Shown here piece by piece: positions 33,459 to 56,253 of a stretch of 64,000 bases of DNA; within the stretch, counting starts at the first letter, position 1, and each line of letters begins with the position of its first letter. The notes under the pieces are model-generated. The model ran no database searches and was not told the origin of the DNA. It was given only the letters and a program-made list of their open reading frames with translations. Source of the DNA: Monosiga brevicollis MX1 (Eukaryota > Opisthokonta > Choanoflagellata > Craspedida > Salpingoecidae); the NCBI RefSeq assembly GCF_000002865.3, contig NW_001865049.1, positions 481,455 through 545,454 of the forward strand, written 5' to 3'. Made by a program: the position numbers and the translations under genes.

Positions 33459-33703
33459 GATTCAGTGGCGTTGAGGTGTCGCGCGCGGCAAGCTGCCAAC
33501 ATAGTGGCTCATCAAGCGCCAGCGGCAACAACCCCACGGGCATGTAAACCCCTCACCCACACACATCCTAATGATGATGATGGCGATGATGATGTTGACG
33601 ACGATGAACCTACCAGCCGAGCACGGGGTGCGCACTTTCACGGCACAGTCTTGCGCGAGAAAAAATGACTCTGAACACTCACACACACACACACACACAC
33701 ACA

Positions 33704-33751
<48 letters not shown>

Positions 33752-33855
33752 CTCTCTCTCAAACTCTCTCTCTCTCTCAAACTCTCTCTCTCTCTTTCTC
33801 TCAAACTCTCTCAAACTCTCTCCAAACTCTCTCAAACTCTCTCAAACTCTCTCAA

Positions 33856-33892
<37 letters not shown>

Positions 33893-34029
33893 CTCACACA
33901 CACACACACACTCTCTCTCTCTCTCTCTCTCGCTCTCTCAAACTCTCTCTCTCTCAAACTCAAACTCTCTCTCTCTCAAACTCTCTCAAACTCTCAAACT
34001 CTCTCCTCTCTTTGTTGCGCAAGACGAAA
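33459..34029. repeat. Divergent region dominated by CA/CT microsatellite
   Basis: Between the MsrB and GNAT-membrane gene starts. 33680-34012 is almost entirely CA and CT runs with CTCAAA interruptions (pure polypyrimidine-type strand asymmetry over about 300 bp). It ends about 18 bp before the chosen start codon at 34030, so it is promoter or 5' UTR of the plus-strand gene. Confidence 0.8.
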
Positions 34030-37000
34030 ATGATGACAATGATCGCAAAGCTGATAACAAAACACACACACACACACAACGAGCGCGAGGTGAGAGATCT
34101 CGTTCCGCATCCGCCCCCCTCGTCGCTGCTCGCCCTGATGCCTTTGTGTCTTTCCCCCGCTGTACCACGCCGTGGCGGGTGGCCTTTTTCCGGCCGTCTC
34201 ATCTCTGTCACTTGCCTTTGATCGGTCGCCGGTCACATACACCCTCTCTCTATCTCTCTTCTCTTCTCTTTTTTTTTTCTTCTTGTTTTTGCATGCAGGT
34301 GATCGCGTCCGATCAGGCCGGATCCGCGGTCGCCAAGGGTGTGCGCGTGTGTCGAGTCTTGCCCAAACTCTTCTCGGAATCTCGTGAGCAAGTAAGTACG
34401 TCATTCATCCAAAGTCCACACATGACTGAACCGATCTGACCCCCAGTCACATGTGGCACCTCACCCCTGAGGCATGCGTTAGGGACAAACCTGATGCTGA
34501 CCGCCATGAACGGGCTGCAACTTCTCCATATCAAGGATCGCCACGATGTGGCCAAACACAAGGCCCAGATCCAGCCTTTCTTTGCCATGTATGAACGCCA
34601 CTTTGACGAGAGTGTGCGTGAGGAGCCGAAGCACATCTTGGCGCGCCTCGAGCAGCAGCCTGCCGTCGAAAATCGCTCCGTTACCCACATCTTTATTCTC
34701 CACTGCCACGACCAAGACCAAGACCAACTCAACATGGCCGGAGGCATGATTCTAGAGTACTACCCCCGCAGTTGTGTGCTCCTTCTCTCCTACATCTTCA
34801 TCGACAAGCGCTTCCGCAACGAGCGTCAAGTTGGTGGCGAGACCATTCGCCTCGCCGAGAGCCTCATTAACTCACCCTCGCTGGGTGGAATCCCGTCCCT
34901 GATTCAGCGTCTTCGTCAAAGCAAGCAAGAGGTTGCCGCCGTCGTCCTGGAAGGCGAAAACGCCGCTCGCACTCTGGACCAATCGAGCAACGGAAACGAG
35001 ACCTTCATCTCCCCTGCCGCTCTGCTCAAGTTCTTTCGGCGCATCGGAGCCAAACGCGTCAACTTTGATTATATTCAGCCCGCCGTCGCCGCCGACGCGC
35101 CCATCGACACCTCGCAGGACCTCTTTGTGATCCCGCACCTGACCGAAAGGAGCGGCGTGTTGCCCCGCGTACGCGCCGCTGTCATTATGCAATACATCAT
35201 CGACATCACTTACTCCCTGGATCGCTACTCCAATCCCCCCGCCTATGCCGCGGACGCCTACCAAGCAGACCTGCAGCTAGCACAAACCATCGCCCCGGGT
35301 GCCACAGTGCCCGCGTTTCAAGGCCCGCGCTTGGTCAGTGAATCAGCCCGGCGACTGCAGCTCTCCCTGCTGGAGCAAGACGATGACCTGGAACTGGAGG
35401 AAGAGGTTAAGCTCGATCTCACCGAGGTCCCATACGCTGAAGAACCTTTGCTCAAAATGTCCGCCGTCAACGTCTGTCTCATGTACATGGTGGACGAGTC
35501 CCTCTTCAAGCGCAGGACCAACCACCGACGCAAGCCTTGTCCCGTTTTTCACTCGTTCGAGATGGATCTGCTCAACTATGCCTACCAGCGTCGCGACCCA
35601 GCCTTTGAGGGCCGCTTTCAGCGTGTGGTGGAGGTGACCATTCGTTTTCCAGAGCGCTTCGAGTTTGTGAGCGAGGTAAGTCGCCGCCTGGTTACTGCTG
35701 TTCACCTGCAAGGTGCTGGCACATTTCGATCTTCAACCTCACACACGGGTCACATCCCACCATTCCCGCACGCTTCTCTCTCCCCATCTTATTGACATCT
35801 TCTGCACGACATGGACCAGGGCCGCCACGAGCTGTTTGTGCCCTTGAATGACGGGACGCTGCGGCAGTTTGGTGAGCAATTCCACCGCTGCGTTGATGCA
35901 CGACTTCACCTCTCCTCCTTTCGCTTTTTTGGCTGTGACGAGCTGATCTGGAACGTCGGCATCGCCCCCGCCGCTGATTCGGCTTTTACTGAATATGATG
36001 TCATCAAACTGCTCAAGTACTTCAACGGTCTGCAGGAGCACGGCAACCTGAGCGCCATTCAGCGGCAACAGAACCGCATCCAGTTTACGCGTCGTGGAAA
36101 CGATGTATTTGCGCCCCTGACTGAATTTCTTTTTGGCGAAAAAGGCATCATCTGTCACTACGAGCCCCTCTCGGCAGACATTCCACCACTAGGGGTGCAA
36201 GACATTTCCTCCGGCATTCTCGAGTTGGTGTTGGGGGATGAGTACTCTCAGTTGTGCCGCAACAAGGTCTTTGTCACGGACGATCGTGCCGCCGACGTTT
36301 TTGACATTGTGGAGAAGTGCTCCTCGGATGAGGGCAATGTCGGCCTCTCCCATTCAGACAGTGAACTGGTGGCGTACTGTCACATTTTATGCGGGTTCTC
36401 TCTGGGTATCATGGATTTTGCCCGCATGGGTCTGAGCGAGTTGACGGACACCGTGCCCCCCCCCCCCCCCCCCCCCCCTTTTTTTTTCTCCTGGTCCAGA
36501 CCCCAGTGGACCGGTTTTTCTGACGCTGGTTCTGCTTGGCCCCTGTGGTGACCTCTTGCTGGCATTTTTTCTGCTCGGCAGACAATGGAGCCATTATCAT
36601 CAACCGTGGTCTGCAATTTGCGATCTCCGTTACCAAGGATGACCTCGAGGTCGATACGCCGATGGTGGGCTTGGAGGAAACCCTGTTCATGAACCCTTAC
36701 CTCATGGTGACGACGGCGGTTGCTAGTTTCAACCACCACCTCCTGACCAAGTTGGCAAAACGGGCCACGTACAACTTGCAGGCCTTGCGCGATTGTAGCA
36801 GCCAGCGCGCTCTGCAACCATTGTTGTCCGACATGTCCGATGTTGAGCGCCGCCTGCAGCGCCACGTCATGCCCAACATGTACAATTTTGAAAACGAGCG
36901 GGAAATTCACAGCATCATCTCTGATTCACGCGGCATTCAAATATTGCAGGAGCAGATCAAAAGCATGCAGGCCTCCTTTGAGTTCAACGTCGAGCAGCTG

Positions 37001-37356
37001 CAAGAACGCATTGCCGCCGGTCACCAGCAACGCCTTGAATTGCTCTTGGCCATTGTTGGCATCGCTGGGGTAAGTCTGTGACGGATGTTGTTGTTGTTGT
37101 TGTTGTTTTTTCTTGCTTTTGAGGGGGAAGAGGGCGCGCGGGGCAGCCAGCGAAAAGCCACTTGTTTGAGCCAAGGGTCATTGCGATGTATGCCTATTGA
37201 TCTTGCTGATGTTATTCGTCCTGGTAGATTTCGGGCGTCTTCTTTGACTTTATCGCCGACGAGGACTTGGCCAAGCTTGTGGCTGGTATTGTCTTGGGAG
37301 TTTTCCTGGTGGGCTTTTTGTTTTTTGAGTGCCGCCGTGCTCGGGCGACGCGGTGA
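34030..37356 (+). CDS. GNAT-like domain protein with long extension and C-terminal two-helix membrane hairpin
   Basis: Six exons close in phase: 34030-34089, 34299-34383, 34447-35675, 35820-36429, 36582-37069, 37228-37356, giving 866 residues. Residues about 70-310 resemble a GNAT acetyltransferase fold: NMAGGMILEYYPRSCVLLLS, YIFIDKRFRNERQVGGETIR (site of the acyl-CoA loop, only a partial Q-x-x-G-x-G match) and FFRRIGAKRVNFDYIQPAV. An acidic linker and a beta-rich middle of unknown family follow. About 690-810 is helical/coiled-coil (SMQASFEFNVEQLQERIAAG). Then come two hydrophobic helices, LELLLAIVGIAGISGVFF and LVAGIVLGVFLVGFLFF, and a basic tail CRRARATR. The helix-then-hairpin end recalls CorA-type topology but no GMN motif is seen. 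A paralog of the first half lies tail to tail at 37665-39367. Function unknown; GNAT assignment is by pattern only. Confidence 0.75.
36456..36488 (+). repeat. Poly(C)-poly(T) tract in an intron of the GNAT-membrane gene
   Basis: About 21 C followed by about 10 T in the fourth intron (36430-36581). The opposite strand is a G-run, able in principle to form quadruplex structure. It is a likely place for sequencing or assembly length errors. Confidence 0.85.
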
Positions 37357-37382
37357 GAATGCTTGTCGCATCGCCTGCTGCA

Positions 37383-37388
37383 AATAAA
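37383..37388 (+). promoter_or_regulatory. Polyadenylation signal AATAAA of the GNAT-membrane gene
   Basis: AATAAA 27 nt downstream of the TGA at 37354-37356, followed by an A-rich run. Confidence 0.6.
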
Positions 37389-37664
37389 AAAAAAAAGACT
37401 CGTGTCTGGTCCTCTGTTGGTTGTTTTGCATGTTATGGCACATTGTTATAATTTGTATTCAGTTATCCCGCATGTGTTACTTTTCAACTTTTTGGAGTTT
37501 GCGTGGCCGTCTGCAACGCAAAACGGGCAGGCTTGGCTCAACCCGAGCATGCGAGCATCTTTCGCTTCGTGGTAGTTGCGCTGAGCGCAAGGGAGACTGG
37601 GTGCGAGGGGGAAACTTTTGTCATGTTTTGTGGGATGAAAGGCAAGAAGATGTACACCGCTCAA

Positions 37665-39367
37665 TTACGCCGTGGTCGAAGACAGAACGAGACGGCGACC
37701 ATCGCAAACCAAGGTGCGACTGGTGGGCGTGACATCCATTTCAGTGCACTCAGCTTGCGCGTAAGCTCGCAGCAAGGTTACCAGCGCCTCCAAACCACTC
37801 TGATCTGGCAGTTTGACGCTAACGCGCACCTCGACCGTCATGGCTGCCGCTACACTACCAGCCGCATCACCGAGCAGCAGCTGGGGTAGTTTGGCAATTG
37901 GATGCCAAGCTTGGGCTGACTCATCAGAGCCCAAACTGACGCTGGCCAGGCGACCCAACCAGAGGGCCGCCAATACCAGCGGATTGGTCGGCGCAGTGAG
38001 AGCAGAGATGTCCATTTCAATGGCACTTCCCTCGGCCGTGGCCTTGGGCATACCAGCAGCCGTGGCCACGCGCTGGTGGGGCTCAGATAGGCCACAAGTG
38101 CGCGCATCCACGGTTTCGGGGAAAATGAAGCAATGCGCTTCCGTCTCGCCTTCGGGGGTGGAAAAGCGCCACTCATCGTGAAAGGCAAGGCGGAGGGCGG
38201 GAAACGTGCTGGGCAGGGCTGCGGCTGATGGGACGTTGAGGCGCAGGCGCAGTCCGTCCAAGGGGGTTGGGAAAGGAGGATCAATCGGAATGTTGATGGG
38301 ACTCACGGCAAAGCCATCGGTACGACTGCGTACGAGGCTATCCAGCATGTCTTGCAAGAGGTTATGCCCCCCATAAGTGACGCCAGTGAGGCGCAAATCA
38401 GCCAGACCACCGGCTGAGACGGTGCGCATGCGCTCGACGTCAGCCATGAAGACGTCTTCCTCGTAAATGCGAGGCTCCATGTTCTCATCCAGAGAGGTGG
38501 TCAATTCCATCAGAAAGACCATCACATCACGAAGATCGAGTCCTTTGGGGTCTGCCTGATAACGTGGGAAGCAATTGAGCATGAGGTTGGTGACGGGCGA
38601 CTTGCCCTCTTCGAGTGGTGGTTGGACGTAGGCGCACGGCGTGCGCTTGGCCCCGATGGATCGGAAAAAGCGAAGGCGCTTGTGAGGGGGCATGGAGTCC
38701 TCTTCGGGATCGGTGCGAGCGGCATGATTCGACTCGAACAGAATCGTGCTCACAGTAGCGTACTTGGCGCGCAGGGACTCAACCACCTATCAGCCACATC
38801 CATCCCCAGAGTGAGCTTACTCGATTGCAGGGTGGCACCAACATGCGCGATGCAGCAGAAGCGGCCCCGATGACCGACCTGAGGAAGCCCGAGGTTGTGG
38901 TTAAACAAAAAGTCGGCGACGCGGAGTCGAGAGCCATCTTGCAGGCTCTGGTGCCCACGAAGGGCCTTGGCCACGAACACGTAAGTGAGGAGGCCACAGC
39001 TGGAGAGTGGGTAGAACTCGATCACCATACCACCGCCAAAGACCCAAGTGCCATCCTCGCGCTCAAGCTCCACCGCGAGGAGATGGGTGAACATGCCCGA
39101 TGGATGCCCTGCCTCCTGACTACGAATGCGCTGCTTGATCACCTCGGGATCCTCACGTTCATCATCGTCTGGAAAGTTGTGCTTTTGCTCATACTCCTCG
39201 AAAAAGGCCGTCACCAGGGCCGCCTGGGACTCGAGGTCCGTCGTTGACTGCACCACCGTGTGCCGCGCCGCACGATATACGCCCATCTTGCCGGCTGTTA
39301 TGGTCCCCTCTACTGAGGGAAGATGCATTTGTTCAACACCCACGATGAGACATTGCACGCATGCCAC
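37665..39367 (-). CDS. GNAT-like protein, paralog of the neighbouring membrane-anchored protein
   Basis: Two exons, 39367-38879 and 38786-37665, close in phase and give 536 residues. Shared blocks with the plus-strand neighbour, in the same order: GGGMVIEFYPLSSCGLLTYV (versus GGMILEYYPRSCVLLLSYI), FFRSIGAKRTPCAYVQPPL (versus FFRRIGAKRVNFDYIQPAV), LMELTTSLDENMEPRIYEED (versus IIDITYSLDRYSNPPAYAAD) and VEVRVSVKLP (versus VEVTIRFP). No membrane segment or signal peptide is evident, so it is probably soluble. The C-terminal third is rich in Ala/Leu/Pro and unlike the neighbour's. The start could be the first Met (39367) or a later one. The GNAT call and any acetyltransferase activity are inference. 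It is convergent with its paralog across 308 bp. Confidence 0.75.
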
Positions 39368-54981: not shown

Positions 54982-55142
54982 GGCTCAACGCTCAGACCCT
55001 GCTGGACAAAAGATCAAGCCAGCAGCACCAATGCGAGGCATACACACAATCAAACTCCAGTTTGAAAACCACTGACTGTCCTTTTAAAAAATGGTCTTGC
55101 TACTTTATATAAATACTTTTCTTTGCCGTATTCACACGTTAA

Positions 55143-55214
55143 GGCGCTTTAGCTTAGTGGTAGAGCGTTGGTCTTGTAAACCAAAGGTCACGAGTTCAAT
55201 TCTCGTAAGCGCCT
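55143..55214 (+). tRNA. tRNA-Thr (anticodon TGT)
   Basis: Full cloverleaf: acceptor stem GGCGCTT/AAGCGCC, D-arm with AGCTTAGTGGTAGAGC (A box), anticodon stem-loop TTGGTCTTGTAAACCAA with anticodon TGT, and T-arm with GAGTTCAATTCTC (B box). 72 nt, no intron, CCA not encoded. A TTTTT pol III terminator follows at 55223-55227. Confidence 0.95.
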
Positions 55215-55222
55215 GAGCATTC

Positions 55223-55227
55223 TTTTT
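55223..55227 (+). terminator. RNA polymerase III terminator of tRNA-Thr
   Basis: TTTTT 9 nt after the mature 3' end. Confidence 0.8.
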
Positions 55228-55685
55228 GACTTGCTGCTTTTACACCTGTTGCTTGTTCTTTTTTGTTTTGTTTTTTCCGTCGAGTCAGCTGTGAGACAGC
55301 CTGCTCCGCATCATGGCTCTGCGTATGCATTGAAAGTGAGTGCAGAACGACGGGCTTGCCATTGGCCGCGTTCCGCATCATGCTAGATGCGCTGATGACA
55401 TTCACTGAATTCGCAACGTGGAACATTTGCACAAAAATCGTGTGTGGTGCATTTTGAGATGCCAGTGTAAGTGTAAAACTTTCGGCTTGCACCAAATTGG
55501 TCCAATGTCAGAGAAAAGCAAGGTGCTGGAGGTGTTGATGGGATTCTGCAGTGAATTTACTGCAGAAAATCCGATATTCTCACCCCGTAAAAAGTTCGTG
55601 ACTCATCTAACCCGCTATAGTGGAATTGCTTGAAAGTCTGACATCTTCGACCAAAAACAATGCGACCAAAATCGTCGTTGTGGGT

Positions 55686-55690
55686 AAAAA
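55686..55690 (-). terminator. RNA polymerase III terminator of tRNA-Met copy 1
   Basis: Five T on the minus strand, 11 nt past the tRNA 3' end. Confidence 0.75.
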
Positions 55691-55700
55691 GAATCGTCAT

Positions 55701-55772
55701 GCTCCCAGCAAGGCTCGAACTTGCGACCTCTGGATTATGAGACCAACGCTCTGCCAACTGAGCTATAGGAGC
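55701..55772 (-). tRNA. tRNA-Met, elongator (anticodon CAT), copy 1
   Basis: Minus-strand cloverleaf: acceptor GCTCCTA/TGGGAGC, A box TAGCTCAGTTGGCAGAGC, anticodon loop CTCATAA (CAT), T-arm GCAAGTTCGAGCCTTGC. 72 nt, no intron. Elongator type is inferred because initiator-specific features are absent. TTTTT on the minus strand (55690-55686) is the terminator. An identical copy lies 329 bp away. Confidence 0.93.
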
Positions 55773-56013
55773 AGCTGTGACAGTGTGTAGAAAATTATTG
55801 TATGAAAATGGCTTTGATCCAGTGACCTTCATTCTATCTTCTCTGCAAAGAAACAAGTGATGGCAATCCCACCACAATCATGAATTGAAACTCTTCATGC
55901 TCGACCATAGAATAGAGGGCGGTGGCTCGTCGCCGACGAAGCAAAATTTGGCATCGCCATTGAGCGAACAAGGAGCGAGCAAAAAAAAACAAGCAAACAA
56001 GAAGCGAGCGAGC

Positions 56014-56020
56014 AAAAAAA
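56014..56020 (-). terminator. RNA polymerase III terminator of tRNA-Met copy 2
   Basis: Seven T on the minus strand directly downstream of the tRNA. Confidence 0.8.
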
Positions 56021-56029
56021 GATCGTCAT

Positions 56030-56101
56030 GCTCCCAGCAAGGCTCGAACTTGCGACCTCTGGATTATGAGACCAACGCTCTGCCAACTGAGCTATAGGAG
56101 C
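56030..56101 (-). tRNA. tRNA-Met, elongator (anticodon CAT), copy 2
   Basis: Identical over all 72 nt to the copy at 55701-55772, same strand. The flanks share only ATCGTCAT before and CAGCT after the gene, then diverge, so the duplication unit was small. Seven T on the minus strand (56020-56014) form the terminator. Confidence 0.93.
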
Positions 56102-56253
56102 AGCTTGTAGCACTGTCTCTCAACTTTTACATATAAAATAAAAGGGTCAAAAATTGATCGGATTTGATCGTCTGCTTTTCTTTGTGTGTGTCGTTTTGCA
56201 GCTTTTCAAGAGCGCGCCGGGGCACGACTAGATCCATCCATTCAACAATCAAG

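Follow-up and report, generated by a model that had tools for sequence, protein, structure and literature searches.

A published account of bacterial conflict systems describes both a GCN5-like acetyltransferase domain and 2TM pore-forming effectors, an acetyltransferase modifier of this type and a SLATT 2TM effector each being known from operons of the NTP-dependent systems (eLife e52696, PMC7159879). A similar combination is found at a locus of Monosiga brevicollis, within the 64,000-nucleotide stretch of DNA analysed here (the window), although the proteins submitted gave no Pfam SLATT match, and the hairpin here is C-terminal. Nearer to this locus are bacterial pairs of GNAT and 2TM genes (L070, Croceicoccus, Sphingobium and other Sphingomonadales), in which both halves are homologous to one choanoflagellate gene and stand in the same order, but as two adjacent or overlapping genes rather than a single fused one. 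The reading we favour, with a probability of roughly 0.7 for its parts taken jointly, is that the plus-strand gene is a fusion of a bacterial GNAT and membrane-protein module, that its minus-strand neighbour is a sister of the GNAT half, and that the GNAT domain most likely acts on the membrane partner by controlling or marking it.

An inverted pair of sister genes

In the gene models, the two genes are tail-to-tail neighbours on opposite strands, the plus gene having exons at 34494-35675, 35820-about 36449, 36582-37069 and 37228-37356, and the minus gene at 39286-38879 and 38786-37665. The original prediction took them for paralogues, and rightly so: residues 13-270 of the plus protein align with residues 12-263 of the minus protein, a block of about 260 residues, at 29% identity (BLAST, 105 bits, E 4e-28), and the whole-protein score is reached by none of 300 shuffles. 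The local inverted duplication it proposed is likewise upheld, as the two are sisters in both trees (support 100/98 and 99/99), and when plus exon 1 and minus exon 2 were each searched against the 39.47-Mb genome, the pair itself gave the sole matches at E<1e-7. Three of the four sequence blocks said to be shared are homologous. The fourth (VEVTIRFP, 35628-35651; VEVRVSVKLP, 37806-37835) is not: the regions following the GNAT part are unalike, 931 of 1000 shuffles reaching their score, and the plus copy falls within the part matched by the bacterial partner, where the L070 counterpart reads AEVSIHFP.

A codon-usage score, trained on two exons, is positive in the called frame for each tested exon stretch of both genes, if just 0.010 in the final third of exon 2 of the minus gene, and negative for introns 1 and 3 of the plus gene and for the minus intron. 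A start at 34030, as originally placed, is not supported, with 34030-34446 scoring -0.333 in the frame then proposed against 0.240 for the GNAT part (34494-35303); it does not look coding. Pfam, NCBIfam and PADLOC searches of the window's proteins gave no meaningful match for either half.

Sister to the plus GNAT half (99/99), the minus gene shares only the GNAT part with the plus gene and has a different tail. Its first exon (38879..39286) encodes the first half of the GNAT-like domain, and is followed by an intron (38787..38878) with a weak donor, GTCGGT, that is non-coding by codon usage; the second exon (37665..38786) completes the domain by about 38400, then continues into an unrelated tail of some 245 residues. 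None of the searches run with this tail gave a significant match, and 884 of 1000 shuffles reach its score against the L070 partner. No segment of the minus protein lies above a hydropathy threshold of 1.5, with two stretches passing 1.3.

All relatives found were bacterial, in collections that were almost wholly prokaryotic and viral. This would also be expected of bacterial contamination of the assembly, an explanation of negligible probability given the GTAAGT donors at introns 1 and 3, a contig of at least 545 kb with a CAP gene within the same window, exon codon usage like that of the window's CAP and aconitase exons, and identities to the L070 proteins of merely 25-33%. The natural interpretation would be a transfer from bacteria, with vertical descent or another eukaryotic route being possible. 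Deep branching in the GNAT tree is weakly supported (53/43), and therefore no donor can be named.

A counterpart of a bacterial membrane protein within the plus-strand gene

As modelled, the plus protein begins with the GNAT-like domain (residues 1-265, 34494..35288), delimited by BLAST to the minus protein, the fold model with Foldseek, and the coding score. A linker in open frame (residues 266-308, 35289..35417) leads to the partner-like half, which runs from residue 309 through the rest of exon 1 and exons 2-4 with their introns (35418..37356). From residue 309 to 751, it matches the 465-residue L070 partner (blastp 96 bits, E 3e-25, z 47, 0 of 1000 shuffles), and the match also holds piece by piece, for residues 266-394 and for each of exons 2 and 3, again with 0 of 1000 shuffles reaching the score. 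Exons 2-4 also match the partner from Croceicoccus (z 14.2) and that from Sphingobium (z 11.1), with 0 of 1000 shuffles each, and with one shuffle in 1000 reaching the score in each case once the hairpins were removed. A profile built from bacterial partners only ranked the exon-3 ORF second among 453 sequences (domain E 5.7e-7), after the spliced plus protein itself. The GNAT halves match the L070 GNAT at 70.5 bits (minus) and 50.8 bits (plus), such that the suspected bacterial kinship extends to both halves of the plus protein. As its extension matches a separate partner encoded 3' of GNAT, the plus gene would therefore represent a fused two-gene operon; the new element is the identity of this extension, which, judged by these alignments, is that of a separate bacterial membrane protein.

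The two halves share exon 1, which is stop-free through the linker and 86 residues of the partner-homologous region before its GTAAGT donor, and coding is unbroken across the junction (scores of 0.125 over 35304-35500 and 0.289 over 35499-35675). Intron 1 (35676..35819, GTAAGT...CAG, phase 0) is defined by its splice sites and coding score, and intron 3 (37070-37227) runs GTAAGT...TAG. The exact donor of intron 2 (36450..36581) is in frame conflict: the natural one (GTGCCC after 36452) is out of frame with the acceptor at 36582, and the four donors identified that would preserve the frame (36405, 36429, 36513 and 36528), in a region with a poly-C tract, are all poor. This conflict is what might suggest two genes or an annotation accident, with exon 1 encoding a GNAT and an independent membrane gene lying downstream. 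That is very improbable, however, with GNAT and partner sequence contained in one exon, and the intron-2 problem sitting in the partner half, away from the fusion point.

As predicted, the plus gene continues for more than 500 residues past the GNAT part, the extension being about 540 residues long and ending in two hydrophobic segments. The stretch to which the profile of bacterial partners fits best, RHVMPNMYNFENER...QEQIKSMQASFEFNVEQLQERI (36860..37012), is probably helical, and precedes a C-terminal hydrophobic hairpin (37034..37326) defined by hydropathy, with its first segment split by intron 3 (37034-37069 and 37228-37254) and its second at 37276-37326; residues 577-595, in exon 2, form an additional hydrophobic stretch. 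A CorA-type end had been suggested, and the topology alone is alike, in that a probably helical stretch is followed by two hydrophobic segments at the C-terminus. There was no Pfam match to CorA, and the GMN motif that marks the CorA family is missing from the plus protein and from all nine bacterial partners; the structure model of the partner (pLDDT 32) is too low in confidence for a fold comparison.

A GNAT fold with an altered acyl-CoA loop

The predicted GNAT fold is supported by structure and by sequence profiles. The model of the domain has a mean pLDDT of 56.7, being high at residues 11-100 and below 50 after residue 237, and Foldseek gave 16 matches to it at E<=0.001, every one a GNAT-type or HAT-module entry (TMt 0.30-0.63, and at least 0.5 in 12). 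The best solved structure by sequence profile is PDB 3ey5 ('Acetyltransferase-like, GNAT family'), matched by profile A7 at E 4.7e-6, and of three bacterial GNAT proteins compared with Pfam, those of Rhodococcus and Burkholderiales pass the cut-offs, with that of Croceicoccus just missing. Hence some bacterial members of the subfamily reach the Pfam models of the GNAT superfamily (PF00583, PF13508), whereas the plus and minus proteins match none and are without the canonical loop glycine, despite sharing the core fold, E and Y-x-Q-P.

The GNAT pyrophosphate loop has the form R/Q-x-x-G-x-G/A. Neither the plus loop (RFRNERQVGGETIRL, 34809-34853), reading RNERQVGG, nor the minus loop (ALRGHQSLQDGSRLR, 38921-38965, minus strand), reading RGHQSLQDG, has this motif, and the alteration of this feature, to which the original prediction had drawn attention, makes ordinary catalysis by either GNAT domain doubtful. 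These domains could, tentatively, be pseudoenzymes retained as protein-binding scaffolds, given that the second glycine of R-G-x-G, conserved in 17 of the 20 aligned rows and present in the L070 GNAT, is missing from the plus, minus and Ferrovibrio rows, and that a helix tyrosine of some bacterial members is phenylalanine in both copies. Conversely, both retain the core fold, the E shared by 17 of the 20 rows, and the Y-x-Q-P motif (20, 19 and 20 of 20; YIQP in the plus protein, ending at 35081); the loop of the Ferrovibrio relative departs too; and the alignment of the plus and minus loops shifted between two runs.

Bacterial gene pairs and a candidate function

The partner gene lies directly 3' of the GNAT gene at nine bacterial loci (L013, L015, L020, L021, L059, L060, L061, L063 and L070), overlapping it through ATGA in L061, L063 and L070 and TAATG in L059, or separated by 31-45 bases in L013, L015, L020 and L021 (with starts as used) and 15 in L060. 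L070, the best-matching pair, belongs to the same class as Ferrovibrio. Several loci on this list were reached via GNAT, the unbiased count being that of the partner-profile search, which identified the partner in six of 396 Sphingomonadales genomes (seed included), with GNAT adjacent in five of the six. Profile A7 found GNAT in one of 398 Pseudomonadota at E<=1e-8, namely the seed, and profile A13 in six genomes among 240 from a single proteobacterial class; all of these counts are lower bounds, and rarity is not firm. L062 has a partner without GNAT, and L072 a sphingomonad-type GNAT without a partner. By hydropathy, two C-terminal segments are present in seven of nine bacterial partners (in one at a lax threshold only), and one in those of L060 and L062.

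The original prediction raised the possibility that one enzyme occurs here in an anchored and a soluble form, which would make the plus protein a membrane-anchored acetyltransferase of ordinary housekeeping or metabolic function. The GNAT fold, the hairpin ending the plus protein, the hydropathy of the minus protein, and the proximity of some bacterial pairs to housekeeping genes (L061 adjoins rpoC) are consistent with this account, but we consider it unlikely. Firstly, the plus tail has as its bacterial counterpart an entire separate protein of 465 residues, far beyond a mere anchor. Secondly, the minus protein has its own unrelated tail. Thirdly, the canonical loop glycine is absent from both copies. 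Fourthly, bacterial occurrence is patchy among the sampled genomes.

The fused module is instead probably of a conflict or stress type. The neighbourhoods of L061, of L059 (which adjoins a histidine kinase) and of L060 (with MauJ about 1 kb away) are not defence neighbourhoods. Elsewhere, in L018, L014, L023 and L071, the GNAT family adjoins a second partner family, TIR-fused or membrane-anchored, whose members match one another at E 3e-32 to 1e-94 (TIR_2, E 5.4e-12; ThsB-like TIR in PADLOC). In Rhodococcus, GNAT adjoins a C-terminal-hairpin protein, and a caspase gene lies some 650 bases beyond. Homology of this hairpin protein to the partner family is not supported, 106 and 222 of 1000 shuffles reaching its scores, although one in 500 did so with an earlier 835-residue model. 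PADLOC matches the TIR and caspase neighbours, and none of the bacterial GNAT and 2TM proteins submitted. With these and the window genes lacking matches, the latter in Pfam and NCBIfam too, a conflict function is guilt by association. It is conceivable, on balance not our preference, that the locus is a domesticated, undescribed conflict module, with sensor or modifier and effector fused and the sensor half duplicated, and the GNAT family the core of systems whose interchangeable effectors may be the 2TM protein or the second partner family, with TIR or a membrane anchor.

Under the favoured reading of a fused GNAT and membrane partner, the plus protein would join the GNAT part, by way of a short linker, to a membrane protein made up of a soluble portion, a stretch that is probably helical, and the hairpin. 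In bacteria, GNAT may acylate the membrane effector, or gate it by binding an acyl-CoA-like ligand, perhaps in a conflict- or stress-type response. In the eukaryote, both parts would be locked together at the membrane, with the GNAT domain probably regulatory or ligand-binding, its transferase activity altered or lost, and the minus sister may serve as a soluble counterpart or competitor.

Proteins that are neighbours in one organism and fused in another provide strong evidence of working together, and the plus fusion is the first cross-kingdom support for a bacterial gene pair of unknown function. An anchor-like tail can turn out to be an entire second protein, and for the choanoflagellate the fused gene is a candidate for a borrowed membrane module. 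Should the pairs in bacteria prove to act in defence or cell death, the fusion would represent a further route of bacterial immunity into eukaryotes.

A sister pair of GNAT genes in eukaryotic DNA

The tail-to-tail pair lies within a genome of 39.47 Mb in 57 contigs. Its eukaryotic nature is shown by the presence of introns and of a cyclase-associated protein gene (Pfam CAP_N and CAP_C). On the plus strand, exon 1 was modelled from an ATG at 34494 to 35675, with intron 1 (GTAAGT...CAG, between 35675 and 35820) separating it from exon 2, which starts at 35820; exon 3 (36582-37069) and exon 4 (37228-37356) flank intron 3 (GTAAGT...TAG, between 37069 and 37228). The minus-strand gene encodes 509 residues in two exons (39286-38879 and 38786-37665), separated by an intron with an unusual donor, GTCGGT. 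A codon-usage score, trained on two exons from the window, one of the cyclase-associated protein gene and one of an aconitase gene, was positive in all called exon stretches of both genes (0.010 to 0.289), and negative in plus introns 1 and 3 and in the minus intron. The original prediction had also included 34030-34446 in the plus gene; this stretch scored -0.333 in the frame then proposed, and does not look coding. Plus intron 2 scored near zero (0.006); its likely donor at 36452 breaks the frame, and four frame-keeping donors are poor. A poly-C then poly-T tract inside this intron (36457-36487) adjoins the frame conflict, and its length may have been wrongly read in the assembly. Elsewhere in the window, long CT and CA simple repeats (33600-34090) lie directly upstream of the plus gene, and three tRNA genes, one Thr(tgt) and two Met(cat), fall within 1 kb (55142-56102).

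The two proteins are homologous, as originally proposed, with approximately 260 residues aligning at 29% identity (E 4e-28; no shuffle of 300 reached the score). Three of the four collinear blocks on which this proposal relied fall inside the aligned stretch; the fourth (VEVTIRFP/VEVRVSVKLP) is not common to both genes, the regions following the GNAT domains being unrelated (931 of 1000 shuffles reached the score). Both trees placed the pair as sisters with strong support (100/98 and 99/99), and no third copy emerged at E<1e-7 when the whole genome was searched with exon 1 of the plus gene and exon 2 of the minus gene.

Neither protein alone had a meaningful Pfam or NCBIfam match, or any PADLOC match, and it was a profile including bacterial relatives that matched GNAT structures, the best being 3ey5 (E 4.7e-6). 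The predicted GNAT fold was recovered from an AlphaFold model of plus exon 1 (mean pLDDT 56.7, with high values at residues 11-100), for which all 16 Foldseek matches at E<=0.001 were GNAT-type or HAT-module entries. The loop that holds the acyl-CoA pyrophosphate in GNATs is altered in both eukaryotic copies: 17 of 20 aligned rows retain its second glycine, which the plus, minus and Ferrovibrio rows lack. The alignment of this loop in the plus and minus proteins shifts from run to run, such that its exact form there is unsure. We infer that the GNAT domains of both eukaryotic proteins have a regulatory role and are not enzymes of the classic kind.

Kinship with bacterial GNATs

The trail to bacteria began in a plasmid tblastn search with the minus protein, which returned eight records at E up to 10, including two Burkholderia multivorans DUF1173 matches (E 0.03 and 0.4) and three weak matches (E 2, 4 and 10). 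Those three pointed the way to the GNATs of Croceicoccus, Novosphingobium and Rhodococcus, and gained their weight only through subsequent tests by pairwise comparison, profile and neighbourhood. The bacterial kinship initially suspected was upheld when both window proteins were compared with the three GNATs: no shuffle of 500 reached the score in five of the six pairs, and 8/500 did so in the sixth, plus against Novosphingobium. A scan of genome contigs, restricted to bacteria and archaea, confirmed eight loci among 99 pattern matches. In the equivalent plasmid search, the protein of plus exon 1 drew 92 records (E up to 10), which we read as chance matches; 18 of the 25 listed are DUF932 proteins, and the lowest E among those listed is 0.3. 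A viral origin was also rejected, with no relative in six scans of viral contigs and a single match, at E 1, among the 50,697 records of a phage tblastn. The deeper branches of the GNAT tree had too little support for a donor to be named.

Fusion with a bacterial membrane partner

In Croceicoccus and Sphingobium, the gene after the GNAT codes for a protein with C-terminal hydrophobic segments, and both of these partners match plus exons 2-4 (0/1000 shuffles each; 1/1000 each with the hairpins removed). When the class to which Ferrovibrio belongs was searched with a GNAT profile, it yielded locus L070, in which the GNAT gene, whose product keeps the second loop glycine, overlaps by ATGA with a gene for a 465-residue partner. 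This partner matches plus residues 309-751 (E 3e-25, 0/1000 shuffles), and also residues 266-394, exon 2 and exon 3, each taken alone (0/1000 shuffles). These matches place the fusion point inside plus exon 1, at approximately residues 265-309. Both halves of the plus protein are homologous to the products of bacterial neighbours, in the same order, and are joined within a common exon.

Hydropathy identified two C-terminal segments in seven of nine bacterial partners (one only at a lax threshold), and one in the remaining two (loci L060 and L062). As for a CorA-type end, there was neither a sequence match nor a GMN motif, and the model (mean pLDDT 32.1) was unusable. For the minus tail, approximately 245 residues encoded at 37668-38400 on the minus strand, our searches returned no significant relative, and its last third has a weak coding score (0.010); the suggestion that it is a partner remnant is without support (884/1000 shuffles reached the score; best BLAST E 0.18).

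The partner profile was found in six of 396 Sphingomonadales genomes, seed included, and a GNAT gene adjoins it in five. The GNAT profile was present in 6/240 genomes of the Ferrovibrio class at E<=1e-8, one being a seed, and four of the five non-seed regions were examined: L070 has the two-helix partner, L071 a second partner type, and two have neither. Among Chloroflexota (11/301 genomes), gene calling in four regions found no two-helix partner, with the GNAT frame of one, L049, itself uncalled. Among Actinomycetota (8/396 genomes at E<=1e-6, one a seed), Y-x-Q-P was in no ORF of at least 150 residues in eight further loci from seven genomes.

Alternative neighbours and a possible role

The second partner family, with the motif WGPSIPIC...YGDENNS or YGFGDENNS, adjoins the same GNAT family, and its member from a genome of the Burkholderiales (L018) bears a TIR domain. 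Members at L014 (5840-7636), L023 (7827-10001) and L071 (6150-7661) have an N-terminal hydrophobic segment, the form seen in Novosphingobium, Sphingobium xanthum and L071, and are related to the L018 TIR protein at E 3e-32 or better. At L018 (4432-8347 and 10721-11938), the TIR-fused protein is followed by one with two tandem GNAT-like stretches, with a patatin gene about 2.4 kb beyond; this looks like an undescribed conflict locus. On a Rhodococcus plasmid (L012, 5535-10222), a 757-residue protein with a C-terminal hairpin precedes a GNAT that starts three bases later, with a caspase-family gene about 650 bases beyond. Homology of this hairpin protein to the partner is unproven (hhalign probability 3.2; 106/1000 and 222/1000 shuffles); with an 835-residue model, 1/500 shuffles reached the score.

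The GNAT and the membrane partner would act on one another, given that their genes adjoin in bacteria and form a single gene in the eukaryote. The TIR, caspase and membrane partners, together with the patchy occurrence, suggest a role for the bacterial module in conflict or stress. However, several bacterial copies adjoin housekeeping genes, and L062 and L072 contain one half without the other; none of the PADLOC defence models matches the bacterial pair. GCN5-like domains and two-helix effectors are already known from bacterial conflict systems (PMC7159879), and at least 175 candidate transferred genes have been reported for one choanoflagellate genome (PMC7971027). No description of the GNAT and two-helix pair was recognised in the titles and opening abstract lines of the literature searched. 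What is new here is the fusion of a GNAT with its partner, and the bacterial pair that this fusion exposes.
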